From Heterotrichella gracilis (lineage: Eukaryota; Sar; Xanthophyceae; Tribonematales; Xanthonemataceae): a stretch of 64,000 bases of DNA. The notes below the pieces were generated by a model. That model did not search any database. It saw only the letters and a program-made list of their open reading frames with translations, and was not told the origin of the DNA. The DNA lies in the NCBI GenBank assembly GCA_032358255.1, contig JAULBX010023185.1, positions 1 to 64,000 of the forward strand, in the 5' to 3' direction. Positions within the stretch are counted from its first letter, which is position 1. The number at the start of each line of letters is the position of its first letter. Below, piece after piece: positions 376 to 64,000 of the stretch. The position numbers and the translations under genes were made by a program.

Positions 376-3300
376 CTGGCTGCGCCGGAGCCCCCGCCGC
401 ACCCTCCTCCCCAGCGCCAAACTTGATCTTCAGCTTGACAGGGCCCGCACCAGGGGCCTCGGGGGACCCCAAATCGCTGCCGATCTCAGTGCTAGGGCCC
501 CCACCATTTGAGGCCTCGGTGGTTGTGGTACCCGCTGCGGCTGGCTTGTCTCCTGCTGGTTTGTCTTCCGCTGGCTTTTCCACCACCTCCTTTTTTACCA
601 TTGGGCCAGGGAAGAGCATGGCTTCAAAGCGCCATAAGGGAAAGGGGGGCAGCTGGAGGAACTCACTGAAAGCCTGTGGGTGGGAGCGCGGGGAGGCGTG
701 TGTTGCACTAGAATTTGAGGCAAGGGTTTTGGAGGTGGGAAGTTAGGGTTAAGAGCTTGGTGCGAGGGTTAGGACCAGGGTACTGGATGGAAAGGACGAA
801 CAGGGGCGTGTCCAAAGCGCAGCAGCCCCAATTCCATCCAAACTTTCAAAGAGTGAAAACAGACCCTTCACACACCTGACAGCTGCAATAATTACCCATG
901 CCGCCGACCCTCAACCTCTACTACCCCCCATCACCCCACCCCCACCTGCGTGAGCTCCCACACCATCAGCACGCCCGGCAGCGCCTTGCCACCCCAGGCT
1001 AAACCCTAAACCCTGAACCGTAAACCCTAGACCCACCTGCGTAAGCTCCCACACCATCAGCACGTCCGGCAGCGTCTTGCCGCCGAACCGAAACTCGGCA
1101 GCCAGCGGCGGCGCGGGGCCCCGCGCTTCGTGCGCCTCCCGCTCGCGCCTGACCTTGGCCCGCGCCTCGGCCACCCGCTGGCGCCGCATCTGCTCCCGCT
1201 GTTCATGGTAGCGCGCGCGGCGCTGCGCCAGAATGTGGTCGTGGCGCTCCTGGGAGAGGGGCTCCTGGGGCAGGTCGTAGCCCTCGTACACCTGCGTGGG
1301 AGTAGAACGTGATATTTCCCCTCCTTTTGCAGTGTTTTGTTAAGTTTCGATTTTTTCATATTTGTATTGATGTGATATTGTTCACGTTGTAGACCTGCGG
1401 GGTGTGCATAAATTTCAGTGGCAACCCTAATTCGTATACACTCACATTGCAACACCCAGCAATCCACATCCTGTGAATCCAAATGGACGGGTTTAGCATT
1501 GGCACATTATGAAGGGGAATAGGGCTGCAGCTCCGAATGGCCACGAGCCCGCTCGCCTTGTTTTATAGGCCCCCATCAAAATAGGTGAGCCCCTCCCCCA
1601 AACCCACATCACCACCACCACCCACCTGCGTCGGCAGCCGCATTCGGCTCGGCTTGGGCTGCCAGGGGTTGTGCTCCAACAGCACCTCCCCAGGAATAGC
1701 GGGGTTGAGGTGCGTTTTCCGTTTTTTGGCGCCATGGTACCCCCCTTGCTGTCCCTGCTCGTCAGAATCGTCATCTTGTGGACTGTCCTCATAGCCGCCC
1801 ACATTTCTCCGTTTGAGGCCCCCGCGGGTCCCCGAGGGCATGTCGGGGGTGGCGGTGGGGACCAGGGACCGGCCCAGTCGGGATTTGGCAGGAAGCGAGA
1901 GGGTCACCCTGGGAAGCTTGCCCTGCTGGTGGGGACAGTACATTTAGTACTCTGTTACTATGATTAAATAATCAATACTATCCCTTTTCTCATTTGATCT
2001 TGTTACTTTTGGGCTAGCCTACTGATTGGCTGAATTCTCATGGTGTTGTGTGGTGCACGGGCGGCGCATGGAAGTATGTGTCATGAGAAAGGGAGCTGGG
2101 CGGTGCAAACAAAAGCATGTGAGTCAAAAAAAGCATTTGAGTCACAATGCAACATTGTGGAGCGTGTGCACGCATGTACATAGGCACCCACCCTCCTGCC
2201 CCCCACTGTGGGTGTGGCATCCTCCTCCTCCTCCTCTTCTTCCTCCTCCTCTTCCCGCTGCAGGAAACAGGACACGTGCTTGTCAACACATTGGTCCTTA
2301 ACTCCCCAAAATATGCACAACTATGTTGTCTGCTTTATTCAGTTACTACAACAGTAACAACTGGGAGTGCCTCTTCATGTGACTGCCATGATGTAAATTC
2401 TTGAATTTGACAAACAGACGAGGAACAACGCACAGGACATACCCAAACCAGCATGGGGCCAATCAGGCCACACCATGGATGGCACAGGCGAAACATCCCA
2501 ACAAACCATCATGATGCAGGTGACAGCCTTGCTCAGCGACAGGCAAAGCGCTCACCTTAGACACGTGGTGGGATTTCAAGTTAGGGTTTTGGGTTAGGGT
2601 TCAGCGTCACCTTGGATCTGTGGCGGGGCGCGGTGGCGGGCTGCACATCCCCTCTGCTAGCAGGTCGCATTCCTCCCTTGGCGCCAGTGGATACCGCAAG
2701 GCGGGCGCCGCCTGACCTGCGCAGCTGCGCCGCATCTGGGGTGGCTTCTGCGGAGGCAAGGGGAGGAGGTGAGTGGGGAGAAAGGAGCCGGGGTGGGGGT
2801 GAGAGGGCGTTGGAGGCAGCAGCGGGCGCATGTGTGTGGGGGTGTGAGTGTGCATGTGGGGCAGCGTGTGGGGTCTGTGCATGTGATACTTTTGTGGGGG
2901 GACATCCGACGGAGGGGGTTGCCATACATGAAAAGCAGCATGCAAGGGGCATTGTGTGAGGCGCATTTGAAGGCGCGTGCGATACAAATTACCCGCCCAC
3001 ATTGATTCCCAAGATGCAATGCACAAAAGCAAATCCTCAATCGCGCTCACCTTCCTCCGCCCCCAGCCTCCCCCGTTTTCCCCCCTTGACGGGCAGCGAG
3101 GCAGGGGTACCTCCCCTGCCCCCACCCCCCTTGACCGTGGCCAGGGCTGATGCCATGCGGCCCCCTCGGGACCTCCCTGCAGGCTCCTCCTCTGCAGTAT
3201 ACCCCACACAGGGCTGGGTGTTAGTTGGCTGTTACCCTCCGCTTGCCTTGAAAGCCTTGGTAAGATTAATATTGTAATGGTAAGAGCAACCGTGCTTTAA

Positions 3301-6247: not shown

Positions 6248-6728
6248 GGCTGCAGTTGCGGGTCACATCACCCACTCGTGGGCCCCGTTTCTAGCTGTTC
6301 GCAGTCAAACTTGGCGAGCGTTGCAGGGCGTGCTGGATTTTGGGAGTGGGAAGCAAAACTTGGTGCTGCTTTGCGCCCAAGTCAAATGTTTTCCCTCCTC
6401 GTCTTGAATCCAAATCACCGAAAATTGTATCATTTACTCCCCTTGGTGCCCATTTTCGGAAAATGATTTTCCCCAACAAAAAAGAGGTGCAATTTCGAGC
6501 AGGCAGAGTGAGAGCTGCTGCAGATGCCCCAACAGCAGTCTTTCGGGTGCTTGACAGCTACCTACAAGCACCAACAGCGAGGCGTGTCACCCACATTGCT
6601 GTGGTAGACCCCGTGCACTCCCCCTTTGTGCCAGCTGGACTTCCATCAGCGGTTTCAGTCCACCCAACACCGTGAAAAACCTGGGTATTACCCCAACCCA
6701 GCCCTTCGCTGTTGTGCACACTTGCCCG
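6248..6728. promoter_or_regulatory. Shared divergent promoter spacer
   Basis: The 481 bp separating the start codons of the bromodomain gene (minus) and phosphofructokinase (plus). It must hold both 5' UTRs and promoters. No TATA box or other element could be identified with confidence. Confidence 0.6.
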
Positions 6729-9700
6729 ATGCAGCTGTCTTTGCAGGCCTTGGCAGGGCATCACGCAAGACCCTTTCCTGCGCATGCCTCGCCCATCGCA
6801 GCACTGAGGCCGAGGCATCGGAAGGCTCTCGGCTCGCGCATGCTGGGCTTGAAAGTGGCTGCTGCAAGCAGTGCAACGGAAGATATGCAGACCTCTTTTG
6901 CCATCGCGCCTCCAGACTCCAGTGATGAGGTGTTGGAGTGCCCTCACCTGCGGGATAAGCTGAAAGCAAGGTAGGGATCATCAGCCATCGCCCATCTCCG
7001 GAACCCGCATGTCAAACCCAGTTTGAACCTGCACAAACAAAGGGAGAAAACGGGCGCGTTGTGTGTTCCTGCGATGGATACACATAGGCTCTTGGTTTTA
7101 AGCGTTATCGAGTGACAGTCCTTGTTTTTTAACATAGCGTGTTAACAACCAGGCTCCAGTGGCAAAAGGCAAGTATATTCCTTCCATATGCATGCCATAG
7201 CCATAGCACTCGATCCAGATGTGCCGCTGGATACTCCCAACGTGCCTATTGGTTCAGTTGCGGTGATAGTCTTGGAGTCTATTCACTTGCTTTTTTTTCA
7301 TTCTTGCATCGTTCCTGCTGTCAAAGCATAGCAGTGCACTGGAGTATGCACGCTGCCCATAGCACTTACTAATAGCTGTTCGCCCTCCCTGCAGGCCCAG
7401 CCCCTTCACCGTGCACAACAACTGGGGAGGAGGCTTTGGTGAGTGTGGGTCAGGGGATGCTCTGTTGTCAACACCTGGTGCAACAACTGCCGCATTTGGT
7501 ATAGCTGCGCAGCTCTCAACACGTTGGTTTAGGGTTTAGCTGTCACTCTGCGACCTCAACCAAAGCACGTGCATGCTGACAGGGTTTGTTGTGCCAACCT
7601 GCAGTGTCAGACGATGACCGGGTGGCTCTCCAGTCCATGAAGTTTGCCTCGGCAGAGTCCTCCGGTGAGTGGGCGCTAAACCCTAAAACCCTAAACCCTT
7701 GCAGGTCAACCTTGTCTGGAGCCTAGCCCGTGTGCCCACTGTTCCCTCCCCTCCTCATTAATAAACTATTGGTGGCTCATACACAGGCGCCAGCTGCGTA
7801 GTGGACATGGATGAGGAGGGAAACGGGACCACCAAGTGGATGGAGGCGTCCATGGAGCAGGTAGGGACCTGTGTTCCACAAATACACGCACTCAAGCAAA
7901 TATTGTACTATCACAGTGATGGTCAACCTGCATTCTCTCATCAATCTTACTAGATACGTATGCTGCAACCTCAAATAATACGTGGACGTTGCACGCCCCA
8001 TTGCCACTCCATGTCCACTGCCAATCCATGCCATTCGATGCGAATGCCATTGCCACACATTGCAGCCACCGAGTGCACGCATTGCCCGCTGACAAGGTGG
8101 ACCTCAATGCACAGCACTGCGGACGCTAGACCCTAAACCCTCAAAGCTCAAGCAGTACCTCCCTCCTGCACAGGTGTGCGTACCGCTCCCCCCCTGGGCG
8201 ATGCGCGCCGGCGCCCGCGACACCATCTACTTCAACCCCGCCGAGACGCACGTGGCGGTGGTCACTTGTGGGGGCCTGTGCCCGGGGCTCAATGACGTGG
8301 TGGCAGGTGCGTGAGCAACGGGCCAGGAGGGAAGAAGTGGGGTGGGGTGGAAGTACACCCTGGTGCACCGCATGGTTTCCAGATGACTTTGGGCTTGCTA
8401 TACTTTTTCCCCGAGAATCCGGATACCGCTGGTATCCCAAAAGCATTATATGGCGACGCGCGCGTAAATGGTGGTCCAGCTTAGGGACCAGGGGTAGCCC
8501 ATGCAAACCCTGATTACCCTGGCCTGAACCTTAGCACTGGTCTACAGGCATCGTGAAAAAGTGCTGCAACTATGGTGTCCCAGAGGAGAACATCCTTGGC
8601 ATCAAGTACGGGTTCAAGGGGTTCTACAACAAGAAGCGGCGGCCGGTGACGCTGACGCAGAAGCTGGTGGACGGCATCCAGCTGCAGGGGGGGACGATAT
8701 TGGGGACGTCGCGGGGGGGCGCGGATATCAAGTGAGTGGGGCGGGTTTAATGCATTCCATGGGTCCAGACTAAGTAGGATTCTGTTTGAGTTTTGAATAT
8801 AATGTCAAGAGTTGACAGGATCTGTTGTTTTTCACCGACTAACGATTCAACACATACACACCCTTCACCACCACCACCCACTGCAGGGAGGTCGGGAAGA
8901 GGCTGAGCATTCTGTGCATCGACACGTCATTTGCATATATACCCACATTGCAAACGTACCTCATTATAACATCCTCCTAGGGAAATGTCAAAGCTCAAGC
9001 ATAAAGTCCATTATGTGCTACTCACCACCATCCCTTGCTCCCAAAGTTTAGAATAATAATGATTACCCGTCCCTCCCCACACACACCCACCACCCCTGCC
9101 CCAGGGAGATTGTGAAGCGGCTGGACATGTGGGGCATCGACATGCTGTTTGTGGTTGGAGGCAACGGGGGCAACGCGGGGGCTAACGCCATCCAGCAGGA
9201 GTGCGAGCGACAAAACGTGCTGTGCTCAGTCATCGGCGTGCCGAAATCCATTGACAACGACATTCTGCTGGTGAGGGGGGGGGGCAGAGGGAGGTGAAGG
9301 ACAGTGTGTGGGTGAAGGGAATTGCCAAGCGAGGGTCATGATCAAACAGCATATGGAAATTGGACCATTTTACATGATCAGGGTAACCTGGGTAATCTGG
9401 CTGTACTGTGAACTAGATCACATATGTAAGCTATGACGTTACAGACGCTTATGCTATCCAACGCTGCCGTCGCAGATCGACAAGTGCTTTGGGTTTGAGA
9501 CCGCGGTTGAGGAGTCGCAGCGCGCCCTGCTTGCCGCCAAGGTTGAGGCCTCCAGCTGTTTCAAGGGGATTGGCCTGGTGAAGCTGATGGGGAGGGAAAG
9601 TGGCTTCATCGCGCTGCACGCATCCATGGCCTCAGGTGGGTAGTAGGGTATTGGTGATAGGGTTTGACGAGGGTATTTGCACGTAGAGAAGCTGGTGGGT

Positions 9701-11279
9701 GGCGGCCTTCTGTTTCAAGAATGTAGCTTTTAGGGTTTGGGAAGTCTGGCTGCCAAGGTTGAGGTCTCCAGGTGCTTCGAAGGGATTGGCCTGGTGGGGA
9801 GGGAGAGTGGCGTCATCGCGCTGCACGCATCCATGGCCTCAGGTGGGTAGCGAAATGGGGCTGTCACGAATAGGCTCCTGGTAAAGCTGATTAAGCTTGG
9901 TGGGATGTGTCCATCCTAGTTTGAATCCTTGGTTTGCCGCCCTTGCCCTAGTCTCTTAATCCCCTTGAATCTTCCCTTGTCCCTCATCATTTCTACCCCC
10001 TCCTCGCCCCCTCCCAGGCCTGGTTGACGTGTGCCTCATCCCCGAGGTTCCCTTCCAGCTGTACGGCGACAAGGGCCTGTTTGCCTACATGGACCAGGTG
10101 CTGGAGGAGAAGGAGCACATGGTGGTGTGCGTGGCGGAGGGGGCGGGGCAGGTGAGGATGGGGAAGTGGGTGGGTGGTGGTGGGTGGTGTGGAGGGGGCC
10201 AGGGCAGTGGGGCGGGCGAGCAGTGGAGGTGATGGTGGTGGGAGAGGGCATCATGGGGTGGGAAAGAAGAAGCGCTCAAACGCAGGAACTTTGGCGCATA
10301 CAAGTGACCTCCTGGGTGATGCCTTCTAATATAATATTGATGGCTGAGCTTGCCTTATTTTGTAAATGTATTGCCTTTTTCAAATTAATTGCGCAAGGAT
10401 GCGGGGCACCTGGCTGAACAGCACAAATGAATTCCACATTCCACTCTCCCCCGTTCTGCGGGGGAATGCATGTAATTGTTGTTATGGTGCACCCTCCCCC
10501 GTTTTGCAGGAGTACATGCGCACCCATGCCGACCTCCAGACCGACGCCAGCGGCAACGTGCTGCTCAAGGACGTGGGCACATGGCTCAAGAGCGAGATGA
10601 AGTCCTACTTCAAGGACGCCGATGTGAAGTACATTGATCCCTCCTACATGATCCGATCGGTGCCAACCAACTCCAACGACCGCATCTACTGCAAGGTGGG
10701 TGCCTGACGCTCTGTAAACCAGGGTAAATGAGAATTAGGAAGGATTTTTTTATTATTATCATTATCACCCCTTGGGTATTGAACTTTAAATTTAAACTGC
10801 AAACCCTAGATTCTGCCCAATAGATGCTGGCTCAAAATGCAGTCTACGCCAGATTGGTCACCCAAGCAAACCCTACACCCTCAAATTCCACCCTGCAGAT
10901 CCTGGCGCACAATGCGGTCCACGCCCCCCTTGCCGGCTACACCGGGATGATCGCTGGCTTGTTAAACCCTAAAGTTAAACCCAAAACGTAAACCCTAAAC
11001 CCTAGATCCTGCCCAGTCGATGCTGGCTCAGAAGACTGGCCTCCCATGCAGCTGTGGTTTCAGAACCCTAAACCCTAACTTCCCACCCTGCAGATCCTTG
11101 CGCACAACGCGGTCCACGCCGCCTTTGCCGGCTACACGGGGGTGACTGCAGGGCTGGTGAACACCCACTACGTGTACCTGCCCATACCTGTGGTCATTCA
11201 GGCGCCGCGCAGGGTGGATCCCAGGGGCAAGCAGTGGAACAGGCTCAGGGCATCCATTGGGCAGCCAAACTTCTACTAG
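6729..11279 (+). CDS. PFK: Plant-type ATP-dependent 6-phosphofructokinase, plastid-targeted
   Basis: Eleven exons: 6729-6970, 7395-7438, 7605-7664, 7787-7860, 8174-8306, 8548-8731, 9105-9270, 9476-9635, 10018-10151, 10510-10695, 11094-11279; 522 aa, in phase throughout. It phosphorylates fructose 6-phosphate to fructose 1,6-bisphosphate, the committed glycolytic step. Landmarks in order: nucleotide-binding [29 protein letters not shown]; catalytic loop [11 protein letters not shown] (the IDND Asp is the base); substrate-binding [18 protein letters not shown]-terminal [25 protein letters not shown] in place of bacterial GGDGT matches plant chloroplast-type PFKs as I know them. The N-terminal 45 or so residues ([18 protein letters not shown]...) are Ala/Arg/His-rich with few acidic residues, as in a chloroplast transit peptide; plastid location is inferred from that. 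Three introns carry copies of flanking exons (8887, 9748, 10888). Confidence 0.93.
8887..8935 (+). repeat. Exon echo or decayed alternative exon (PFK exon 7 start)
   Basis: A CTGCAG acceptor followed by about 48 bases that read [15 protein letters not shown] in phase, against the used exon [15 protein letters not shown] at 9105. It diverges from the used exon, then loses it. No donor follows at the matching position. Confidence 0.75.
9748..9850 (+). repeat. Exon echo (PFK exon 8 end)
   Basis: About 100 bases copying the 3' part of exon 8 (9536-9641), including the donor CAGGTGGGTAG, with an internal deletion where KLM is encoded. Lies about 110 bp downstream of the true exon. Confidence 0.9.
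10888..10964 (+). repeat. Exon echo (PFK last exon start)
   Basis: Copy of the last intron's acceptor and the first about 65 bases of exon 11 (true start 11094). It reads [17 protein letters not shown] and ends at CCCTAAA motifs. Shorter remnants of the same intron segment precede it. Confidence 0.9.
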
Positions 11280-48138: not shown

Positions 48139-51100
48139 TCACCACCACCCCCGCTTCTTCCCCTCCTCCGGCGCATTGAACCCGTCGCTCCCCTTGACGC
48201 CCCCGCCGTGCTTCCCCCCCTTGTGCTTCCCTTTACCCTGCTTAGGGTTGTGCGAGTAGAGCTGCACGGGCTTGCCAGGTGTCAGCGCAGCAACCCCTGT
48301 TGCAGCTCCAGCACTGGCAACTTTGCTGGTGTCAGGCAAGCCCAGCGCCTTTTTGAACCGCGGCGTCTTGAACAGCACGGTTTGGAAGAGGGAGAACACG
48401 CTGGAGGTGACCCAGTACATGAAGACGCTCTGTGGGGGCCGGGGAGTAGAGTTTACACACTTCCTGGTTAGGGTTTAGGGTTTAGAAATCAGGGTTTGTG
48501 AGAGGGAGAACACGCTGGAGGTGACCCAGTACATGAAGACGCTCTGTGGCGGCAGGGGGGGTTAGGGTTTAGGGTTCAGGGCCAGTGGAGGTGGAGGGTA
48601 TGGGGTGTAGATTCTGCCGTTGGATTGTTTAGGTTTAGGGTACAGTGCGAGCCCCAGCCGCCAACCAAGTGCGCGTGAACGTGATTGACAACCAAACACT
48701 CAGGGTTGCAACTGCTGTTTCACTTTCTGCGCCCACCCAGCCCACTCACGTTTGGCATGTTGACTGTGAAAGGCAGCATGGCCACCCCAATGAAGCGCAT
48801 CATCCACTTCAGCCGGTTCATCACCTCGGGGGGCTGGCCCTGCCAGGAAGAAAAGGGGGTGGTTTTCAAGGATAAGGGTCAGGTGAGGGTGTAAACAGTG
48901 TGCAGGCAGCACAGTGGGGGCAGCTTATACCCGTAGGGATGTATGATTGCCCCTCCCCTTTGCAGTGTGCAGTCATGGTTTTCCCTGTGGCTTTGCATGG
49001 ACCATCAGGCAAGAGGTTCCGGTAATGCACTTCTAGGGTCCACGCGAGGACCATACATCAGCAAGACCGGACAGTGGGCAGGGTTATTGCAGGACCATTC
49101 TAGGGTTTCCATGCCAATTTTCCTTACTTGCTATGCGTTAATGCTATTGCCGCGCTTTCTGCGCAAACTGCGTTCACTTTTATTTCTTTCCTTTTATGCA
49201 TGGATCAAAACACTAGGCAGGGTTGTTGTAGGGTTGGTCTAGGGTTTCCTACCTGCATTCCATCCGCCGCACCCAGCTCCACCGTGAGGGGAAAGGTTGC
49301 TACCTAGGGTTTGCATGGACCCAACGCTAGGGTTTACGAAGGGTTTACATAGGGTTTCCTACCTGCATGCCATCCGCCGCACCCAGCTCCACCGTGAGCA
49401 GAAAGATCCTTGACACCAGTATGTGTGTTTAGGGTGTAGGGCTTATGGTCTAGGGTTATTTCTAGGGTTTCCTACCTGCATGCCATCCGCTGCACCCAGC
49501 TCCACCGTGAGTAGGAATATGCCTGATGCCAGTATGGGTGTGATGTAGTAGGGATCAGGGGCGGTGAGGTCGGTAAACCAGAGATTGCCACCTGTCACCA
49601 GGGAGGGGACCTGCAAGGGGGAGAAAAGTAGTGGGCTATGTGGTCTTTTTTTTTTACATTACCAATGTTACAACCGCTGATGTACATGGGGCGATGTAAT
49701 TGGTGATGATGTGAACAGGGTTATGAAATTCTTGGGTCAGGGGCGGCGAGGTCGGTGAAGTACGGGTGGCCACCTGTCACCAGGGAGGAGACCTGCAAGC
49801 GAAAAAGAGGGCATGGAAGACTGGGTAATTATGCACTTGGCAATAGCCAATCCCAAACACTGCTGCTGCGATCGAAACCCCCAAACCCTCAAACTTTGAG
49901 ACTATGGGAGGTACCACAAGAGAAAATGAGACATTCAGTGGTGCGTGTGGGATAACGAGTTGTTCATGCGAGGGCGCAACAGGCTGATGGCATGTGAGTG
50001 CAACGAGTCGCTGGGCTCAGAATATGGGTGGTGTATACTGTCCTCAAGGCTTTGTGTTGGTTAAACTCGCACTTCAGACGAACGAGACAAAAGCATCACC
50101 GCCCAGCGACACACGCCAGCGTGCACATGCGTGGTCCGAAACCCTAGGCTGCAAACCCTATGCACAGGTCTGCCCACCCTAATATGACCATTATATCAAT
50201 GGAAACTCTACCAAAGGTGTGATACGTATGATTGTATTAATAATGTATTACTAATATTATAATGTATTACTGATAAAATTATGTGAAATCTACCAGAGGT
50301 GTGAGCTGGTTGCAACCTACTTCTTCCACACCCTAAACCCTAAACCCTAAACCCTTCACGCTAGCTCCTAAACCCCCCTATTGCGGCCGCCACACCCCTC
50401 AGCACACCCTAAACATCAACCCTTAGCCTACCTTTGCGGCCGCCATGCCCCTGAGCACAGCGAAAAAAGTGATGAACCGCGGGGACGAATGGCAATCCCC
50501 ACCAGCTATTTTAGTGCAACCTACTTCTTCCAAACCTTGAACCCTAAAACCACAGACGCTCAACCTCGTGATGCACCCCATGCATAACCTAGGCCAGCTG
50601 CATCGACGCAAACCCTAACAAGAACCCTAGACCCTACCTTTGCAGCCGCCATGCCCCTGAGCACAGAGAAGAAAGTGATGAAGAGCGGGGCCTGGATGGC
50701 GATCCCCACCAGGGACTTGAGCGGGTTGCACTTGTACTTCTTCCACACATCGGCAAGCCGCTGCTGGTACTCGCTCACCGCGTTGGGGTTGCCTTGCTGC
50801 AAATTTGGAAACATAAAGTCTAAGATTTAAAGGTTTGGAAGGAAATGAATTTTTTTGCTGGTACTAGCTGACTTCGTTGGGGTTGCCTTGCTGCGGGTTC
50901 GTGAGGGAGGGAGATCGCATGTTAGGGTTGAGGTTAGGGTTTGGGTTAGGGTTGCCTTGCTGCCAGGTCGCGAGGAAGATCACTTGTCAGGGTTTAGATC
51001 AAGGCGGGAACAAACCTCGCGCCAGGGTTTGTGGGAAGGCAAGAACCAAGTTCTACGGTTTGTTGCAGGTCGGAGCGAGGGCGGTGGCAGAGTGAGTGTG

Positions 51101-52961
51101 TGTGTGTGTCTGTGTCATCACGTGGAGATGACCACCAGAGCCACCTTCCCACTCCCGCCTCACATTGCAAGACACCGCACTGCACATCACCGCAGCTAGG
51201 ACAACTATCACAATGCCGGGGGTGGTCCAGCTGGGATCATGCATTCCATTGTGTGCAGCTAGGATAATAAGATATAAGAGTAATAGTGGGTCCCGCCGCA
51301 TCTCAAAGAGACATGTGCAGCTAGGATTCCTGCCGCGGTGCTGGGGATAGTCCCAGGGAAAAGGGGTCCGGCTGGTATTATGTACTTCATTGTGTGCACC
51401 CACCGCTTGCTGGTCCTTCATCCACTCCACCAGTTGCTGCATCTCAGGCCGCGCTTGCTGCACACGCACAACCAGTCATTGCGTCAGCACCCGGCGCAGT
51501 TTTAGGGTTTAGGGTTTAGGGTTTGGCATCTCCGGCGCGCTTGCTGCAAACAGACCCCCCATTGCGTCAGCACCCGGCGCAGTTTTAAGGTTAGGGTTTG
51601 GCCTCTCAGGTCGTCCTTGCTGCAAACAGACCCCAGCCATTGCGTCAGCACCCGCACAAAATACGTAGGCGACTATACCATGGAATCAGCGTTGGGTGCA
51701 TGGTGGGTGCAGGTAAGGCACATATGCATGCCAACGCGCACCGCAATCACCGCATAAGCACTGGCGATTGGTTGTTGTTTCAAAGCATGGCGTTTGTGTG
51801 GATGATAGGCAGGGTGGTTAGACTGGCAATGCCACCGCACAAACAAAATTACTGCTCAATGACCAGCCCGCGGGAGATGATAAACGGATGCATGGCCAGT
51901 ATGTATGTGGTGGTGTGGTGGGTCGCACCATCATCCTGGCGGTGTTCCTCATCTGGTAGAACCGTCATCCTGGTGCAACCCTAAAACCTAGATCCTAAAT
52001 CCTAAACCGTGAGCATCTGGTCGCACCATCATCCTGGCGGTGTTCTTCATCTGGTAGTACCGTCATCCTGGTGCAACCCTAAAACCTACATCCTAAACCC
52101 TAAACATCTGGTCGCACCGTCATCCTGGCAGTGTTCTTCATCTGGTAGAACATGACTGGCAGCATAAGCGTCCGGATGCCGATGGTGGTCGCCACGATGG
52201 ACTGCCACCTGCACGGTTAAGGTTTAGGGTTAGATTAGGGTTTGCGCTGGGCTTACTGCATATAACCAGCTCAGCAAGTCAAATCTGATTGCTGTTTCCA
52301 CTGCTATACTGTCTTCTAGGTGCACACCAGAGTTGCACACAACCTAGGCTCCATATATGCCAAGTGGCTGTTGGAGTATACCCCGCCAATCTGCTGCTTG
52401 TCAGGGATGACCAGCAGATACCAAGGGGAAAATGCAGGTGCTGCCCTACCAGTCCAGGCCGCTGGCATTGTGCGCAGTCAGCAGCAGGTTGAACACCGCC
52501 TTGGTGGGCACCCACATGCCCTCGGCAACCGTCGCAAGCGCAGCAACCTCCGCCAGCCCCGCAGCCTCGATGAACACCGATGGGTCAATGTCCTGCATGC
52601 CGCCGCCCCCTTGTAGGAGCTCTGTGGTGCTGGGACTGGGATCGATCGCTGTCCCCGCCGGTTCAGCGTTGTCTAGGGACGCTGCCCCTGCCTCTGGGGG
52701 TTGTTGGTCTGGGTCTGGGGTGGGGTGCTTGATCCCAAACCACGTGAAGGTGCGGGGCTGGGCGCCCATGTGGGGGTCGTACCCGAAGCGCTCCGGGTGC
52801 CTGAAGCCGCATGCTGTGGAGGGGTTGCCTAGGCCGGAGGCCAGGGCTGACGAGAAGAGGCGTTGGGGTATGGCGAGGGTGGATGGGGCATCTTGCTTGC
52901 TAGATGCCAGCAGGAGATCCAGGCAGGTTTTGCCAGCTTTGGCAGTGCCTCGTCGTAACAT
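48139..52961 (-). CDS. OXA1: Oxa1/YidC/Alb3-family membrane insertase, mitochondrial type
   Basis: Seven exons: 52961-52450, 52208-52118, 51457-51404, 50796-50638, 49610-49476, 48839-48750, 48429-48139; 443 aa, in phase. It inserts membrane proteins from the matrix or stroma side. The N terminus (MLRRGTAKAGKTCLDLLLAS...RLFSSALASG) is basic, lacks early acidic residues and looks like a mitochondrial presequence, so Oxa1 is favoured over chloroplast Alb3. Core motifs: WWQSIVATTIGIRTLMLPV (first conserved span), MKNTARM, SEYQQRLADVWKKYKCNP, PLFITFFSVLRGMA, GGNLWFTDLTAPDPYYITP, GVAMLPFTVNMP, MYWVTSSVFSLFQTVLFK. The tail is Lys/Gly-rich (GKGKHKGGKHGGG), as in Oxa1 tails that bind ribosomes. All or nearly all introns carry exon echoes. 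Confidence 0.93.
48499..48551 (-). repeat. Exon echo (Oxa1 exon 7 start)
   Basis: Near-exact copy of acceptor plus about 40 bases of exon 7 (true 48387-48440), followed by TTTAGGG motifs. Confidence 0.93.
49252..49421 (-). repeat. Two exon echoes (Oxa1 exon 5 end)
   Basis: Copies of the exon 5 end with donor (TACCTGCATGCCATCCGC...CACCGTGAG) at about 49252-49297 and 49365-49421; true copy 49473-49530. TAGGGTTT motifs separate them. Confidence 0.93.
49740..49796 (-). repeat. Exon echo (Oxa1 exon 5 start)
   Basis: Copy of the first about 55 bases of exon 5 with its acceptor (true 49560-49616), so this one exon is echoed on both sides. Confidence 0.92.
50007..50110 (+). mobile_element. MITE-like element, copy 1
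   Basis: 104 bp bounded by perfect 10-bp inverted repeats GTCGCTGGGC / GCCCAGCGAC. The same element lies inverted at 55261-55364 with only a few differences. No coding capacity. It sits in an Oxa1 intron. A target-site duplication is not evident. Confidence 0.82.
50330..50355. repeat. (CCCTAAA)n telomere-like tract
   Basis: Nearly four CCCTAAA units in an Oxa1 intron, next to the exon 4 echoes. Confidence 0.9.
50386..50541 (-). repeat. Exon echoes (Oxa1 exon 4 end)
   Basis: A long degraded copy of the exon 4 3' half (about 50431-50541; true copy 50634-50740) and a shorter remnant at 50386-50410. A CCCTAAA tract (50330-50355) borders them. Confidence 0.88.
50863..50969 (-). repeat. Two exon echoes (Oxa1 exon 4 start)
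   Basis: Copies of the exon 4 acceptor region (GTTGGGGTTGCCTTGCTGC, true 50782-50800) at about 50863-50899 and 50946-50969. Confidence 0.85.
51501..51625 (-). repeat. TTTAGGG tract and two echoes (Oxa1 exon 3 start)
   Basis: A TTTAGGG tract (51501-51525) is followed by two copies of the exon 3 acceptor segment (CTC-GG-CG-GCTTGCTGCA; true 51443-51462) at about 51527-51552 and 51601-51625. Confidence 0.87.
51927..52079 (-). repeat. Two exon echoes (Oxa1 exon 2 end)
   Basis: Copies of the exon 2 end with donor (GGTCGCACC-TCATCCTGGC-GTGTTC; true 52110-52160) at about 51927-51983 and 52018-52079, each followed by CCTAAA-type motifs. Confidence 0.92.
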
Positions 52962-53457: not shown

Positions 53458-56400
53458 ATGGGCCGACGAAAAAAGAAGGTAAACCTACGCAGATGTAACC
53501 GACAGGCGCACGCGTTGCGCTCGCGCGCCAGCTGGTGCACCAGTTCGCCTGGCCGCCACCTCGGCTGCATATGCATGCATTGTGTTTTGCATGCATCTGT
53601 CGGTGGCTGGTGCCGGCACACGCCCTGAACCACGTCAAACCGCAGCGACAACTTTAAACAAAACCACACCATTTTTATCCCTAGCATAGCTTTGCTGGTG
53701 TGTGTTTAGCACTGGGTCGTGGCCAGGGCTAAGACATGCGTTCGCCGCCGGATGCAGGGGACCGAGGGAAATGCCGCGCAGTACTTCACCAGAAACCAAG
53801 CCCTCAAGAAGCTTCAGCTCAAGCTATCGCAGTTCAGGTTCGGCCCTCTCTTCCCCCGCGCCTGCACCCCCTCCTCTCGCATCCCCACCCATTCCCCCAT
53901 TGCTCGCCATGCGCCCTTGTGACATTGGTCCAAGCCTGTTAGGCGACTGACCATCCCAAAACCCAAACCGTACACTTACCCTGTCCCCAAACCCTAACTC
54001 TGTCCCTGTTGCTGCAGGCGGCTGACCATTTTGAAGGGCATCCACCCCCGTGAGCCCAAGAAGAAGGTGCACGGGCAAAACAAGACCTACTACCACGTCA
54101 AGGACATCAACTTTCTGCTGCACGAGCCGCTGCTGAATAAGTTCAGGTGAGGCACCCAAACCCTAAACCCTAACCCTAAACTCTTAGCTGCACGAGCCGC
54201 TGCTGAGCAAGTTTATGTAGGCATCCAAATCCCACCACCACCACCAATGCCGTCGCCGCCACCACCACCGCCACCAAAACCACTGCCTTTACTAGCACAG
54301 CCACTGCCAGCAATCCCATTGCCGCTGTCACCACCACGACCACCGCTGGTTGCAATCTGCTCTGAGTATCCCTCCCTACTTGTAAGCCCCCAACTGCCAG
54401 CTCCCTTCCCTAGTTGTGGGCCATATCCACCGGCACCTGTGCATACAATTACCCTATTGACCAGCTGTGACAAGACCCCTAGACGCCACACCCTAATAAG
54501 GCCGCACACTCCCTGCGGGAGCTGACCTGCTGTAGGCAAAGAAGCATTCAGAACCCTGAACCTAACTCTACCCCGTAACCCTTCCCCTGCAGGGAGCTGA
54601 GCTCGTATGACAAGAAGATTCGGAAGGCGCACGCCAAGAAGAACGAAGACCTGGCCAGGAGGCTGGTGGAGCGCAAGCCAACATACAGACTGGACCACCT
54701 GGTCAGGGAACGGTAGGGCTTTTGCTAGGGTTATTGCTAGGGTTTGATATCAAGGTTTACGCAAGCCATCATACATGTAGGCTGGAACACCTGGTGAGGG
54801 CTTCCATGAGGGTTCTTGTACCAGAGTTTTGTGGCAAGGTCCTATTAGGCTTGCCCATCTGGGCAGGGCACGGTGGGTTCCTTGTTAGGGTCTTTTGTGT
54901 CAGTGTGCTTCACTGCAAATTGCACTCTTGTGTGGCTCCTGTCCTGTGATGGCAAACACATATATACGCTATGCTCAATTCCAACATGTGGATGACTTAT
55001 TACCGCCCCAACGGGGCCTGAGGGCAGGGCAAGCCGTGCACCAGCCATTACTTGCATCATTAGGGTACACTTTTGACCCATTTAGGGTATGCACAACGGT
55101 TGTTTAGGGTTTGTACCTAGGGTTTTGCACCAAAATGGGGCCTGAGGGCAGGGCAAGCCGTGCACAAGCCACTTCCTGCTGCACAACTCGGTCAATTACC
55201 CTAGTAGGGTTTGCAGATTTGTTGTTTAGGGTATGTAACTTAGGGTTTGCATGCGCATGTGTCGCTGGGCGGTGATGCTTTTGTCTCGTTCGTCTGAATG
55301 GCGAGTTTAACCAACATAAAGCCTTGAGGACAGTATACACCACCCATATTCTGAGCCCAGCGACGCGTCACACACACACACACACACACACAGTTTTGGA
55401 TGCGACACGTCGACTTACCCATCATACTGTAACCCATCATGTCACGAACCATTATTCGGCTAGAAGAACCTTCTGCACTCAAGAATCAAATCCCACTCTC
55501 ACACCCACCCAAAGTCCCCCTTAACATTTTTTCATTTTTACCTTGCCCCCCTCTCCTCCTCTGTAGGTATCCCTCCTTTGTGGATGCCCTTCGGGACCTG
55601 GATGACCCCCTCACCATGATCCACCTGTTTTCCACCCTGCCAGCGGAGTCGGCGCTGGGGATCCCCACCGCGCTGGTCAATGCAGCAAAACGGCTGTCTC
55701 TGGAGTGGCAGGTGAGGAGGGAGCTGTTATCGGCTGCACTTTAGCAGGAAGTGCTGTTGTTGGATGACTGACATGCGCTGTTTAGGGTTTAGGGATTAGG
55801 GTTTAGCGTTCCAGCAGTACAGCTGTAGCGGAGTACCAGATTTCTGGCTTTCCACGGTAGTACCTGGTATTATACTTTGGCTGGAAAAGCAGTCAGCAAT
55901 GCACAGGCGCGCCAAGCAGTTCCATTCAAATTCCCAAACCCTAAGCGCTAGCGCCTGCAAGTCCAGGCCATGCAGCCACCTCCCCATTCCCCCCCCGCTG
56001 ACCCCCTCCACCCGCCCCCGCCCCCTGCAGGCCTACATCGTGCGCACCCACGCGCTGCGCAAGGTGTTTGTGTCTGTCAAGGGGTTCTACTACCAGGCGG
56101 AGGTGCAGGGGCAGGTGGTGACGTGGCTGGTGCCCCACCAACTGGCGCAGGTCTTGCCGCAGGTGAGGCAGGGAGGCTTAGGGTTTAGGGTTTAGGGTTT
56201 TGGTATGTACACTTGACCAGCCTATAATTGGAGTCCGATGGTTGTGTACTGCCTGAATGGTTCACTCATGGTCTAATGGGGGTTTTGATGATGGTGTCTA
56301 CAGTTTAAGGCTGATCACGTGCTGATCCACATTGCTGGCGCGATGGGATTCCTTCTCCCTCCTTCAGGGACCAGCTCCATCCCTACATATACATCAAAAG

Positions 56401-59400
56401 TTGTAATCCGGTCAAAGCAGAAACACTATTCAGTATGACTAACGGTAGCACGGAGCAGTTTGGGAGACTCACGCATCATGAAATTTTTTGCATCTTGGAG
56501 TTCTGGGAGTTGAATGACCTCGGGTCCATGGGTGTGAAGTTTGAGGTAGTCTTGGATAGATTTGGCGGCGTTGTCGATGGCCTTTGGATAATTAATTTCA
56601 TAACAATCGTGCAACCAGTAGGAAACATCTCTTTCATACTTTTATCATTGCAAATCAAGACCATTCTTCCCACCCCTCCTGATCCCATACCCTTGCCTGC
56701 AGGACGTGGACTACAAGGTCAAGGTCACCTCCTCCACATTTCCATTCTCACACCCATAATTAACCCCATTCCGCCCCCTTGCAGGATGTGGACTACAAGG
56801 TCATGGTCACCTTCCTTGAGTTCTACAACACCCTGCTCCAGTTTGTGCTGTTCAAGCTGTACCACGCGCTGGGGGTGCGGTACCCTCCTAGGGTCGACGA
56901 CAGGCTGGAGAAGGCAGCGCATGGCTTGGCTGCGGTGATGGAGGACCTGGCGGGTGGGGTGGGGGGTGCGGATGTGGGCGCGGCTGCTCTTCCGGCGCCA
57001 GAGGAGGTGGGTGGTGGGATGTGGTGGTGAGGGCCTTTTACAAGGGGAAGTGAGGGGCTGAGGTGGGGCGGAGAGGGACTCGCTGAATGTGTGTTGGGAG
57101 CTGGGGTATTGCAAAGAGTAGTACTGTACCAGGTGTTGCAAAGAATAGTAAGGTATGTATAAGATGCCATCTGGTGGCGCTTGTAGCCAGCACAACTAAA
57201 GAGAACGCCTTCCACTCCAGGAACTAAATGTGTAATGTTGCTTGCAGGCACCTGCAGCAGCGGTGGCTCAGCAAGGGGTGGAGGCGGTGGAGGATGACGG
57301 GGAGGCGCCCATCGTGGACCACTTCCGGGACAGCGACAGTGAGAGCGGGGATGAGCTGGGGATTGATTCTGGGGATGAGGTGCGCGGGCGTTGATATCGT
57401 CTTTTGCTGCTCCCTTCACAAGTTGCATTGTAGTGCTACTAGTGGAGGCATTCCACTTGGGGTGTGCACAGAAATGGTAACTGCTATCGTTCTTTGAGGC
57501 AGGCTGTGCCAATGCCTAGTCATGGTGCATGCATCGCTACGCATGTATCGCAGGCCCTGTGGTGATTGGTGCTTATGCATTGGTACTATGCCTGTATGCT
57601 GCGGTGGTTAGGGTTAGGGTTTAGGGTTTATTGGAGCTGCTCGTGCTGGTGGTGATGATGTACCAAGAACCATCAAATAAACCACTGACGGCCCACCGGC
57701 CTGTGTTGATTCAACTTTCAGCCTTGTCTGAGCCACACGGCAGCTCCGTTCACAAGGGTTTGGGTTAAGGGTTTCCCTAGGGTTTGGTTAGGGTCTCTGG
57801 CACCACCACTGTGTTTCGCTTTGCCAGGCACAAGCATCTACACGCACCAACATATGCATCAACATTGACGACCATTCACCAAAACTCTAGCACAACAACC
57901 TCACCGAGCCCAGGAAACGCAAACCACACCCCGAGTAGAAAAAACCTAAGCACAAACGCCCCCACCCCCCATCCCCGCAGAGCGACAGCGGGGACGATGC
58001 TGACCACGCCCCCACCACCACCACCACCACAGCCCCCGAGGACATGCAGGTGGTGAGCGTCCCGCGGGGCGCCCACCAAACCAGCGACCCCGGCAACGAG
58101 CCCGGGCCCTCGGTAGCCGGGGGCGCCATCGGCGTGGATCCGGACGACGAGGCCGCGGTGTGCGCAACCCTATTCAAGGGTTTTGTGTTCTTTTTGGGAA
58201 GGGAGGTCCCAAGGGAGGTGCTGCTTCTGGTGGTGAAGGCCTTTGGTGGGGTGGCTGCGTGGGGGGGGGAGGGGTCGCCGCACCAGGAGCACGACGAGGC
58301 GATCACGCACCAGGTACGGGTTTGGATTAGGGTTTGGGGTAGGGTTCTGGTTATAGGTGTTCATGTCAGGAGCACGACGAGGCCATCACACCCAGAGATG
58401 GGTGTGATGTGTCCATTTCCTTAAGAGCTCAGAAGAAGTCAACTTTACCCAGCATCACTCAAACACACTACCGCTCCTGTACTTCACGTAGCCTTCATTA
58501 GGCCACTTTTCTCCAGGTCATATTCCGTCATCCTGGATTCCTCCCCCCCGCCCGGCCCTGACCCCCTCCCGCAAATTCCCTGCAGATTGTGGACCGACCC
58601 ACCCAGGGGCACAAATTCCTGTCGAGGCAATATGTGCAGCCCCAATGGGTCCTGGACAGCGCAAATTTCAGAGTCCTGGCAAATGCGGATTTGTACCAGC
58701 CGGGGGCCCAGCCGCCCCCGCATTTGTCCCCCTTTGTGCAAGCCGAGGAGGAGGGGTATGAGCCTGACTACATGAAGACTCTGAAGCAGCTGCAGGTAAG
58801 GGTTTAGGGTTTGGGGAAGGGTTTAGGGTTTGGGCTATGAGCCTGACTACTTGAAAATCCTAAAGCAGCTGCTGGTAAGGGCTCTGTAACCTGGGCGATG
58901 ACTTGTGGGAGGTTCAGCATACATTGTGTGTGGTGGTGTATGCGGTCGCTGTGTGTGTGGGGCAGATCCCCTTCAGCTGCTGCTGGGAAAAAGTCCCCCA
59001 AAAAATATAGGACTCAGGAGCATAATCAGCAGCAAACCCTCGAGCTTCAAAACCATGATGTATCTGTAATTACCCTCCCTAGGAGGCCGCAGCAGCTGTG
59101 AGCACCGGTATTCTTTTGTACACATTATAGTATTAAATATGTAAGTAAGTAAGTAAGTATTTGCTTTCCAGCTTTGAAAGCCAGGTTAGCATGTCTGGGT
59201 ATGCCTCACCCCAGTCCTAGAGCCAAGGCTTAACTGACACTGTTTCCAGTGTGGCAGATGGTGGCCAACCAGTCGTGCCGCTTACCGCACTTGCGTGCTC
59301 CCCATTTTATCCCGTCGCAAAGTTCAGGGACATTAATTAAATATGTCATTTTTATTTAGTTAATATTTCTTATTACCCTCCCCTTGTAGGAGGCTGCAGC

Positions 59401-61266: not shown

Positions 61267-64000
61267 TCAGATCCAGTACTCCGGGTCATCCTTCTTGGGC
61301 CACTTCCACTCCGCTGTGCGATCATCCGTCACGTACTCAATCGAGTCGGTGGCCGAAGGCTCGGAATCCGATGAGTCCTGTGCGGGTGAGGACAATGCGC
61401 CTGCGCCCACCGGCTGGGGGGCGGGGGTGGGGTTGGGGGAGGGGGGTGGCGCCTTGGCTGTGCTCCTGCTGCTGCTGCTGCTGGTGGTGGTGGTGGTGGG
61501 TGGGGTGGGGGCTGGGGAGGGGTGCGCTTTGGCTGTGCTCCCACTGCTGCTGGCGGTGGTGGGGCTGGTGGTGGAGGGTGCTGGGGAGGGGGATGCTTTG
61601 TCCGTGCCCTTGTCGCTGGTGGGTGTGGTGCTTGTGCTGCTGGTGCTGGTGGTGGGTGTGGCGGTGATAGAGGTGGGTGTGGTGGGTGCGGCAGCTGCAC
61701 CATTCCCCGCCACGCTCCTAAATGACACCACCCCATTGACAACCCCTCCCACAGGAGGCTTCCCCACCTTGTCTGGCCCCCGATGCCCTCCCTCCGCACT
61801 GCTGCTGACAGTATCGTCACTCCCCCCTGGGGCCCAGCTCACGCCCTCCCCGTCAATCGAGCCCACCGCCACCCCTTGGGACTCGGCTTGTGGCGGCGGC
61901 GGTGGTGGAGAGGGGGTTTCTGTGGTTGGCTGCGCAGGGACCGCCTCGGTGGTTGAGCAGAAATCGCTGTCCTTGTACTTGAGATCCTTGAGCCATTGCT
62001 GCATGTTGAGGGCGGGGGCGCCTGCACGGTGGGGGTTTAGGGATTAGGGTTGGGGTTTTCTTAGGGTTTGGGGTTGAGGGTGGTTGAGCAGGAGTCGCTG
62101 TCTTTGTACTTAGAGGTCCTTGAGCAACTGCTGCATGTTGAGGGCGGGGGCGCCTGCGCGGTGGTGGGAGCAGCGTTTAGGGTTAAGGTTTGGGGAAGTT
62201 CCAAGCCTCGAGGGCCAATGAACCCTCATGCACACACTGTGCAGCCGCCCGGCCCGGCACTCCCACCACCCACCATCCACCCCGGGCACACACTCCTTTC
62301 CCCCTATACACCACTGCGGAGAATGGCCATGATACTACACCATGGCATTTTGAGCTCCGCACCTGTGATTTTCCCGATCTCCTTTGCGGGCGAGCCAGCC
62401 ACCATGGTGCGCGGGGGCACCGCCTTGAGCACCAGCGACCCCGCCGCCACCTGCGCCCCCCTGCCCACAATGATGTTACCCAGGATGGTTGCTGAAGCCC
62501 CGATGAGGACCCCGTCGCTGATTTTGGGGTGCCGGTCGCCTGTCTCCTTGCCGGTGCCTGCAAAAGGAATCCCAATTAAAAAAGAGAATAGAAAGTGACA
62601 TTTACAATCACTAAATCACAAAAACAATAGAATAAGAGTAAAAAGTGACATTTAAAACTAAAAAATATAAACATTACAATCCCGCCCCGTCGCTGATCTT
62701 GGGGTGCCCGTCGCCCGTCGCCCGTACCTGGGGGAGCAATAACGATTGGCAATGAACAACTAGAAGATGATATTTACATCAATATGAAAGATAGCTCCAT
62801 TGCTGAGCTTGGGGTGCCTGGCTGGGTGGAGGTTGGATGGCAGGTGCAGCAGAAAACCTTCTAATTGCCTGTACACGATACAAGAACAGAATGGCCCTGC
62901 CAATGCGCGCAACCGGGTGTGGGTCCACCGCAAGGACCCCGGTCACCCTTGTCTACCATTAGGGCTTAGGGTTCTGGGACTAGGGTTTAGGGTTTAAGGG
63001 TTTCAAGTCAGGACGCACCTCCCAGCGTGACGTTCTGCAGCATCGACACGTCGTTCCCGATCACCGCCGTCTCCCCAATCACCACCCCCGTGCCGTGGTC
63101 CAGTAGAATGCCCCTGCCGATGCGCGCCGCAGGGTGTATATCAACCGCAAACACCGATCTCACCCAGCTCTACCAGTAGGGTTTTGATACCAGGGTTTAG
63201 GGTTTAGGGTACGGTCGGGACGCACCTCCCAGCGTGACGTTCTGCAGTATCGACACGTCGTTCCCGATCACCGCTGTCTCCCCGATCACCACCCCCGTGC
63301 CGTGATCCAGTAGAATGCCCCTGCCGATGCGCGCCGCGGGGTGGATGTCCACAGCAAACACCGAGCTCACCCTGCTCTGCAGCGCCATGGCCATCACCCG
63401 CTGCCCCCGGTGCCACAGCGCGTGCGCGATGCGGTGCGCCTGTATGGCCTGGAAGCCCTTGTAGTAGAGCAGCGCGGCGCTGAAGGAGTTGCAGGCGGGG
63501 TCCTGCGGGGTAGGGTTGCAGGTAAGGGTTTAGGGTTTAGGGTTTAACATTTAGGGCGGAGAAGGATTTGCAGGCGGGGTCCAGATTTTACGGTTTCAGG
63601 TTTTGGGGTTTTAGGGATGCGGTGCGCCTGGATGGCTTGGAAGCCCTTGTAGTAGAGGAGCGCGGCGGAGAAGGAGTTGCAGGCAGGGTCCTGCGGTGCA
63701 GTGTTTTAGGGTTTAGGGTTAAGGGTTTTTGGGATGCAGGGCGCCTGGTTGCCTTGAAGCCCTTGTAGAGTTGTCGGTTAGGGTTTAGAGGTGAGAATGA
63801 GTTTAGGGTTTAGGGTTTAGGGTTTAGGATTTGGGGTGGAAGAGGAGTCTGCAGGGAAGGGGTGAAAGTGGCGATTGCTGGTATGCAGCGTGGCGGTGTG
63901 ACTAAAGTGGCAGTGGTTGTGGTGGTGTGGTGCAGTTGCTGTAGTGGCAGGGTGGGTGCAGAGGTGGTTTGTGTGTACTCACCCGCTCCTTGACTGCCGC
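61267..64000 (-). CDS. SAT: Serine O-acetyltransferase (5' end beyond window)
   Basis: Visible exons: 64000-63983 (partial), 63502-63226, 62557-62363, 62021-61267; in phase. The enzyme acetylates serine with acetyl-CoA to O-acetylserine, the carbon skeleton for cysteine. Exon order: AVKER joined to [34 protein letters not shown]; left-handed beta-helix with [20 protein letters not shown] (catalytic His/Asp), [35 protein letters not shown] (active-site His), [20 protein letters not shown] and [11 protein letters not shown]. Beyond the catalytic domain the protein continues for about 240 residues rich in Ser, Thr, Pro, Ala, then ends [14 protein letters not shown]. Plant SATs end in a short peptide with a terminal Ile that docks into O-acetylserine sulfhydrylase; here that kind of ending is kept behind a long insert. 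Every visible intron has exon echoes. Confidence 0.94.
61420..61690 (-). repeat. Low-complexity Ser/Thr/Pro coding repeats
   Basis: GCT/GGT/GTG-rich trinucleotide tracts encoding poly-Ser and Thr/Pro runs in the serine acetyltransferase tail. Confidence 0.85.
62073..62164 (-). repeat. Exon echo (SAT last exon start)
   Basis: About 80-base copy of the acceptor and start of the last exon (true 61947-62027), about 90% alike by eye with small indels that break the frame. Confidence 0.93.
62580..62690. repeat. AT-rich tandem duplication in SAT intron
   Basis: AGAATA-AAAGTGACATTTA units occur twice (about 62583-62605 and 62630-62655) in an AT-rich segment. Confidence 0.7.
63010..63172 (-). repeat. 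Long exon echo (SAT exon 2 of the window, 3' half)
   Basis: About 150 bases matching 63216-63372 (donor plus beta-helix codons) with few changes. A further, worse copy lies at about 62893-62945. TTTAGGG motifs separate copy and exon. Confidence 0.95.
63552..63768 (-). repeat. Three exon echoes (SAT exon 2 of the window, 5' part)
   Basis: Copies of the exon start and acceptor (GCGGAGAAGGAGTTGCAGGC-GGGTCCTGCGG; true 63427-63510) at about 63552-63582, 63613-63694 and 63732-63768. Each is followed by TTTAGGG motifs. Confidence 0.93.
63800..63829. repeat. (TTTAGGG)4 telomere-like tract
   Basis: Four consecutive GTTTAGG units, the longest plant-type telomere-like tract in the window, in a serine acetyltransferase intron. 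Confidence 0.9.

Follow-up and report, generated by a model that had tools for sequence, protein, structure and literature searches.

Why do introns of the xanthophycean Heterotrichella gracilis hold pieces of the exons that flank them? The question is raised by a 64-kb stretch of contig 232 (the window, the whole of the DNA presented above) in a draft assembly of 68.5 Mb and 903 contigs. An initial annotation of this window had claimed that, in at least seven of ten loci, introns contain direct copies of the adjacent exon end. We call these copies echoes. We examined 264 kb, consisting of the window and one 100-kb stretch each from contigs 2 and 46; a held-out set of 50 kb from five further contigs was fetched later and scored with the fixed model. 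Exons were called by an iterated ab initio model that had learned from long open frames and admits GT/GC–AG introns only; all exon borders are accordingly predicted ones. With a minimum length of 45 bp and a good coding score required, the set comprises 319 exons (median 172 bp). The calls are approximate: several exons of the YidC gene were missed and some echoes were called as exons.

The loci of the window were checked by Pfam with hand-edited proteins. Nine of the ten gave matches above the curated cut-off with hand-trimmed proteins, namely bromodomain, PFK, trypsin, rhomboid, DWNN, E2F, 60KD_IMP, Pescadillo and serine acetyltransferase; the match of the tenth, pectate-lyase-like, falls below that cut-off. 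A Pfam scan of a Pro/Cys-rich protein returned no family above cut-off.

How often is an exon end copied into its own intron? A 60-mer from each exon border was sought in up to 500 bp of the intron next to it. A direct copy was found at 60 of the 568 predicted borders in the 264 kb, 13 of which have two or three copies. By comparison, inverted copies in the same flanking introns numbered 0 of 568, random pairings of border 60-mers with other introns gave 0 of 1704, and of 866 noncoding windows scored out of 900 requested, drawn from outside the model's exons and compared with their own flank, 18 had a copy, some of which may be exons that escaped the model. In the held-out 50 kb, 6 of 85 borders were copied, as against 0 of 85 inverted, 0 of 255 with other introns and 0 of 393 noncoding. 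Echoes occur on three of these five contigs and on six of the eight sampled overall. At a stricter score, copies remain at 15 of 121 borders in the window, 25 of 222 in the contig 2 stretch and 9 of 225 in the contig 46 stretch. Self-BLAST, with telomere motifs masked, a gap below 500 bp and a score of at least 35 bits, yielded 40, 66 and 23 direct repeat pairs in these three stretches and 0, 1 and 0 inverted pairs, a total of 129 direct to one inverted. The copies are local, with none of the 1704 pairings to other introns matching, which is not the behaviour of dispersed, near-identical introner elements. One intron does contain a different short dispersed repeat. We conclude that the exon-end echoes are real and spread genome-wide. 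The expectation that donor-side copies lie downstream of the exon and acceptor-side copies upstream is built into the border test, which covered the intron side only.

Within the window, eight of the ten gene loci carry echoes, in line with the initial count of at least seven; the repeat-pair and exon lists show no echo for the DWNN (RBBP6-like) or the E2F locus. In the bromodomain-protein gene (reverse strand) the donor end of exon 1037–1291 is echoed at 944–993, a copy of 1035–1084 (92%), with telomere blocks at 999–1029 between the two. The PFK gene (forward strand) has a donor-end echo of exon 9476–9635 at 9746–9850 (84%), with a telomere block at 9729–9738 between, and an acceptor-side echo of its last exon, 11094–11276, at 10888–10950 (90%), with CCCTAAA blocks at 10963–11078 between. 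Two further forward-strand genes have echoes: in the trypsin-like gene exon 15159–15328 is preceded by acceptor-side echoes at 14753–14819 and 14926–14969, the gaps being without an exact telomere 7-mer, and in the gene for a Pro/Cys-rich, extracellular-type protein exon 16556–16765 is echoed at 16458–16512 (89%), across a gap without a telomere motif. On the reverse strand, exon 22453–22911 of rhomboid paralog 2 is echoed at 22959–23019 (79%), with a telomere block past the copy at 23024–23041, and in the pectate-lyase-like gene, exon 35690–36016, positions 35911–35980 recur at 36105–36175 (85%), with a telomere block at 36086–36094.

The YidC/Alb3-like gene (reverse strand) is echoed at five places. 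Exon 48149–48429 has an acceptor-side echo at 48501–48557 (96%), with telomere blocks at 48468–48485 and 48562–48576. An exon end at about 49472–49536, missed by the filtered model, has donor-side echoes at 49249–49295 and 49359–49423, each adjoining telomere sequence. Exon 50638–50796 is echoed on both sides, at 50431–50505 (donor, telomere sequence between) and at 50856–50894 (acceptor). Acceptor-side echoes at 51527–51581 and 51604–51654 repeat 51440–51498, beside a telomere block at 51501–51524, and exon 52118–52208 has donor-side echoes at 52019–52073 and 51921–51975, with telomere sequence in each gap. In the Pescadillo gene (forward strand) exon 54018–54146 has a donor-side echo at 54187–54223 (87%) and a CCCTAAA block at 54158–54173; exon 56785–57006 an acceptor-side echo at 56698–56730 (94%) without a telomere motif; exon 57981–58313 a donor-side echo at 58367–58403 (84%) and a telomere block at 58327–58335; and exon 58586–58795 a donor-side echo at about 58833–58874, found by eye outside the repeat-pair list, with telomere blocks at 58799–58831 between. 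Three regions on the reverse strand are assigned to the serine acetyltransferase gene. Exon 61270–62021, which the model makes this gene's last large exon, has an acceptor-side echo at 62082–62163 (90%) with telomere blocks at 62033–62069. A 165-bp donor-side copy at 63007–63171 repeats 63214–63378 (93%), with a telomere block at 63192–63210 between. Finally, the span 63428–63828 holds an acceptor-side series of echoes at 63555–63582, 63619–63696 and 63733–63768, interspersed with telomere blocks at 63525–63546, 63705–63720, 63778–63788 and 63801–63828.

Are the telomere-like blocks a general companion of the echoes? The window contains 78 telomere-motif runs of at least 9 nt, compared with 0–5 in five Markov shuffles. 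Over the sample, introns (109 kb) contain 164 exact 7-mers, exons (68 kb) a single one and the other 86 kb of sequence 49; 125 of 259 introns carry the motif, at densities per 10 kb of 13.6 in the window, 9.5 in the contig 2 stretch and 3.2 in the contig 46 stretch. The gap between original and copy holds an exact motif in 32 of 60 cases, compared with 17.0% of 2295 matched intervals, which are intron stretches at borders without copies. Allowing one mismatch in a 9-mer, the figures are 39 of 60 and 26.0%, which leaves 21 of 60 gaps without telomere-like sequence. Viewed from the other side, copies are present at 44 of 251 borders with a motif in the flank and at 16 of 317 without (p = 1.8e-6). 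The annotated link between TTTAGGG/CCCTAAA and the copies is thus borne out. In duplication-free introns the motif occurs at 2.2 per kb within 30 nt of the donor, 1.5 from 30 to 60 nt, 0–0.8 from 60 to 180 nt and again 1.5 beyond 180 nt. Six-unit TTTAGGG arrays, oriented as telomeres, lie in the first 80 bp of contigs 70, 140, 526, 609, 717 and 770, and four-unit TTAGGG arrays are found in two places only. Short arrays of the genome's own telomere repeat are thus present at internal sites. Contig 626 encodes a telomerase RNA-binding domain (PF12009, above cut-off).

Are the duplications confined to exon borders? Among 90 duplication clusters exactly one copy is exonic in 70, both are exonic in 7 and neither in 13; at least 3 of these 13 fall in the YidC gene, where the model missed exons. 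Among the 129 individual pairs, 88 include one exonic copy, whereas random placement of these pairs gives 32%. We also simulated random tandem duplication anywhere in introns or across borders, exonic originals being constrained and both copies of intronic ones drifting; on the assumption that unit lengths are spread evenly over 30–160 bp and ages evenly over the range up to 0.30 substitutions per site, 38% of the detected duplications are exonic, compared with 70 of 83 observed (p = 1e-17). The copies stop close to the border. Leaving out four rows per side that were capped at 10 bp by the query (so that 28 of 32 donor rows are used), 24 of 28 donor-side copies reach 10 bp or less into the intron, compared with 26% in the simulation, which was run for donors only, as do 21 of 24 acceptor-side copies. 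Identity past the border drops alike with or without telomere sequence in the gap. The exonic part of the copy measures 21–102 bp in 59 of 60 cases and 148 bp in one, within queries of at most 150 bp of exon. The echoes are thus direct tandem duplications, mostly of about 100 bp or less, composed mostly of exon sequence and ending near the splice site.

What becomes of a copy once it is made? Its exonic part is identical to the original at a median of 0.90 of positions (range 0.70–1.00). Copy and original differ at 85 of 882, 71 of 883 and 160 of 879 sites at codon positions 1, 2 and 3 (9.6, 8.0 and 18.2%), and of 24 indels between them 21 shift the frame while 3 are multiples of three. Transitions and transversions stand at 167:149. 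The copied splice site is intact in 24 of 32 donor cases (GT) and 17 of 26 acceptor cases (AG), somewhat below the value of about 0.83 that simple arithmetic gives for neutral decay at 9%. The codon-position pattern and the frame-shifting indels argue strongly against both an assembly artefact and a second functional coding exon; the copies do not show the frame and codon-position constraint of alternative or mutually exclusive exons. The pattern is the one expected when an exon stays under constraint while its copy drifts freely. Several such copies were nevertheless read by the model as exons, giving repeated peptides, for example in the PFK and serine acetyltransferase genes. The initial annotation had also held that copies become worse with distance from the exon, a trend that does not reach significance among the 60 echoes (Spearman −0.24, p = 0.07). 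Copies across telomere-free gaps are not significantly older, at an identity of 0.875 compared with 0.901 where telomere sequence is present (p = 0.11), and we dropped loss of the telomere block with age as the cause of such gaps.

In which direction do the blocks read? In none of the 32 gaps with an exact motif are both orientations present, as if a single end had been extended. Read outward from the exon, the acceptor-side gaps hold TTTAGGG in 11 cases and CCCTAAA in none (of 28), the donor-side gaps TTTAGGG in 12 and CCCTAAA in 9 (of 32; p = 0.013 between the two sides). On the sense strand the first 60 nt from the donor hold 26 TTTAGGG to 30 CCCTAAA and the more distant intron sequence 22 to 78, a shift significant per motif (p = 0.002) and per intron (p = 0.027). 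The simplest reading is that selection by splicing shapes the orientation, since TTTAG|GG mimics a 3' splice site and would be tolerated only where it lies too near the donor to serve as one; a directional insertion process is the alternative. Echo-bearing splice sites are not richer in G than other borders, and priming by G-rich splice sites has no compositional support. The one hint of it is descriptive: donor-side copies average 54% G next to outward TTTAGGG (n = 12), 34% next to CCCTAAA (n = 9) and 37% where there is no motif (n = 11).

Which came first, the telomere block or the duplication? The order has to be inferred from the sequences of the scars. Where the first gap contains telomere-like sequence, such sequence also lies past the outermost copy in 22 of 37 cases, compared with 5 of 23 where it does not (p = 0.007), which suggests that the block was often in place next to the splice site when the duplication happened. 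In several pairs, among them those at 11094 and 52118 in the window and at 540 in the contig 2 stretch, homology extends through the telomere block. In some instances at least, the duplicated unit included a telomere block already adjoining the splice site. In the other 15 of 37 the telomere-like sequence is in the gap with none past the outer copy, a pattern that fits one-step insertion with duplication. Both routes may be in operation. A search of two echo regions for empty sites in paralogs or second haplotypes returned the window, diverged paralogs, telomere-like matches and one dispersed repeat; the rhomboid paralogs are too diverged for dating the event.

By what mechanism might such scars arise? 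We tentatively favour, at a little under an even chance, the view that the echoes are small tandem duplications (about 20–100 bp, exon end plus splice site) left by the repair of staggered breaks, and that the same repair inserted short telomeric repeats. Duplications that are direct only and some tens of bases long speak for fill-in of staggered ends followed by end joining. A staggered break just outside an exon would leave 3' overhangs of some tens of bases, both carrying the exon end. Such overhangs are a substrate that telomerase can extend, and it would add a few TTTAGGG units to one 3' end. Fill-in of both ends, of the kind that CST–Pol alpha performs at telomeres and at breaks, and their joining would then give a product that reads exon end, telomere block, exon end. 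Only events that put the copy on the intron side would survive, the true exon and splice site being left intact while the copy decays neutrally; telomere blocks adjoining splice sites could join further rounds and so build up a series of exon ends with telomere sequence. The scheme starts from the border-bound direct copies, their neutral decay, their telomere association, the telomerase domain and the TTTAGGG at contig ends. The staggered breaks themselves, the action of telomerase at the site, the fill-in enzymes and a cause of breakage at exon borders are inferred, and the scheme gives no reason why breaks should fall some 20 bp or less from a splice site. Several observations fit the scheme poorly: telomere-like sequence is missing from 21 of the 60 gaps, whose copies are not clearly older; the telomere block often predates the duplication (22 of 37); priming by G-rich splice sites finds no backing in composition; and at five junctions the telomere tail shows no microhomology to the start of the copy (on average 2.0 of 10 bases match, 2.5 being expected). 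Of 23 pairs read by hand only six, a small number, were informative on the register of the break, at least one base being in register with TTTAGGG in four and at least three bases in three.

Could the duplication have proceeded without telomerase? Telomere blocks independently inserted at splice sites might be fragile, and exon end, splice site and telomere would then be duplicated together in tandem through replication slippage or unequal exchange. We regard this as possible, though doubtful. It would account for the 22 of 37 cases with telomere-like sequence past the outermost copy, for the homology through the block, for the 13 borders with two or three copies and for the somewhat higher density of the motif near the donor in duplication-free introns, although that density returns to 1.5 per kb beyond 180 nt. 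It has difficulty with the 15 of 37 cases confined to the gap and with the 21 (by a second measure 23) of 60 gaps that lack telomere-like sequence altogether, and by itself it gives no reason for blocks at splice sites. End joining by polymerase theta, with patches templated by the nearby exon, would also explain why the copied sequence has a local source and why filler of tens to a few hundred bp separates original and copy. This mechanism should produce inverted copies too, and the counts of 0 of 568 at borders and one inverted to 129 direct pairs make it improbable; the five junctions examined showed no microhomology. The break-repair reading of the initial annotation is accordingly to be divided. 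A single recurrent process is supported by intron-side direct copies on six of eight contigs and by the strong telomere association, and the genome encodes a telomerase domain and carries the same heptamer at contig ends; the absence of inverted copies tells against templated patches. The duplications are tandem, as had been expected, and break-induced fill-in of staggered ends fits them better than patch copying.

Might the copies instead be useful, as spare or alternative exon ends, or as telomere-like splice enhancers or branch points? Splicing may indeed shape orientation, given that TTTAGGG becomes scarce on the sense strand more than 60 nt past the donor and that all 11 acceptor-side gaps with an exact motif carry CCCTAAA on the sense strand. 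But differences of 8–10% at codon positions 1 and 2 and 18% at position 3, the frame-shifting indels and the retention of GT and AG at no more than the neutral expectation render selection on the copies very unlikely. Introns do hold exon-end copies, as they should if they were born by tandem duplication of an AGGT-bearing exon stretch and the copies were relics of that event. A Rogers-type model of intron birth reportedly has the upstream exon end copied to a position immediately in front of the acceptor, and the three window copies inspected for this (9476, 11094 and 54593) sit away from the opposite splice site; we give this origin very little credence. As for an artefact of assembly or sequencing, the assembly is a draft in 903 contigs and a run of G opens the window, but copies that differ by 0–30% substitutions with codon-position structure and the above ratio of transitions to transversions, on six of eight contigs, leave that explanation scarcely tenable.

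How do the echoes relate to known scars of repair? According to Vaughn and Bennetzen (2014), natural insertions in rice are said to be patch-mediated tandem duplications from break repair; we know of no link of these to telomeres or exon borders. The initial claim that no named system matches was too strong, since telomeric insertion with target duplication in the horse (PMC7215372), duplications made by CST–Pol alpha (PMC8355091) and the telo-box model (PMC3022908) all come near, as far as the accessible parts of these papers go. Interstitial telomeric sequences (ITS) at double-strand breaks in horse and human, for which telomerase is the proposed source, are likewise short telomeric blocks within the genome in either orientation; in the horse, a simple target duplication accompanies 3 of 66 telomeric insertion loci and bases are in register with the repeat at 31 of 40 informative loci. 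In the part of that study available, human ITS are absent from exons and their intron share matches the expectation for random insertion, and the effect of intronic telomeric repeats on splicing is named as worth testing (PMC7215372). The repeats described here differ in occupying 125 of 259 introns, in being denser near splice sites and in being tied to exon-end duplications. In human and mouse cells, CST-guided Pol alpha–primase generates small tandem duplications where breaks carry 3' overhangs, the induced overhangs going down to 43 bp (PMC8355091). The resemblance lies in direct duplications below 100 bp, in end-joining scars and in a fill-in complex that also acts at telomeres; on the other hand, those breaks are induced, and neither a telomeric insert nor a preference for exon borders is described in the accessible text. 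Plant telo boxes share the identical motif, AAACCCTA, and transcription-linked 3' ends have been proposed there as telomerase substrates, but the boxes are enriched in 5' UTRs, with introns slightly below the genome average, and the available portion of the paper does not describe exon copies (PMC3022908). A Chlamydomonas telomere paper mentions interstitial repeats, whose role is, in the portion at hand, given as unknown (PMC6549138). In the open-licence literature we found no earlier account that links intronic copies of exon ends to telomere repeats. The echoes are a new variation on known repair scars, with an unusual bias towards exon borders.

What do the echoes mean for this alga's genes? 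They bear on two open questions, how introns lengthen and what determines where genes break, and they may be one route of intron growth. They are also a trap for annotation, as gene finders read them as extra exons. Each scar carries its own clock, in the neutral copy set against its constrained original, its own source and often a telomere insert, so that rate, age and orientation can be measured within one genome. It is conceivable, though we hold it with considerable reserve, that exon borders are here a genome-wide target of telomerase-linked break repair, in which telomerase and the fill-in machinery drive intron growth and the making of decoy splice sites while splicing selects the orientation. 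If telomerase does take part, the maintenance of chromosome ends would be tied to the structure of genes.

How are telomere blocks (runs of the heptamer TTTAGGG or CCCTAAA) and exon echoes (imperfect direct copies of an exon end and its splice site within the adjacent intron) distributed among tandem paralogs? Three rhomboid-like paralogs lie in tandem at window 18738–27235. A telomere block ahead of an acceptor is common to all three (19667, 23333 and 26816–26861), while an exon echo appears in the middle paralog only, as judged from the direct repeat pairs of the self-BLAST. At 23179–23240, a rhomboid intron holds a stretch of ~35–60 bp with ~20 further genomic matches at 81–97% identity (query ~780–841). 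This stretch is a short dispersed repeat, non-telomeric in character, and possibly a fragment of a mobile element.

One DWNN intron contains a TTAGGG array, the vertebrate-type hexamer, at 32510–32540; an exact four-unit array of this kind occurs in only two places in the whole genome. Within the pectate-lyase-like gene, one intron carries a tandem non-telomeric motif around CCCTAGGCTAGGGTAC / GCTAGGTACCCTAAGC, recognized by eye at 38000–38235.

Adjoining the trypsin-like gene, positions 15908–17900 of the window encode proline-rich stretches with repeated Cys-rich units; a Pfam scan of this protein returned no family above the cut-off. The window opens with a run of 54 G (1–54), probably an end effect of assembly or sequencing.

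Rfam places snoZ43 at 55267–55358 (+), within an intron of the Pescadillo gene. By eye, we noted a second snoZ43-like sequence at ~50002–50110 (−), in an intron of the YidC gene and oriented oppositely to the Pescadillo copy. Given these opposite orientations, each would be sense with respect to its own host gene.
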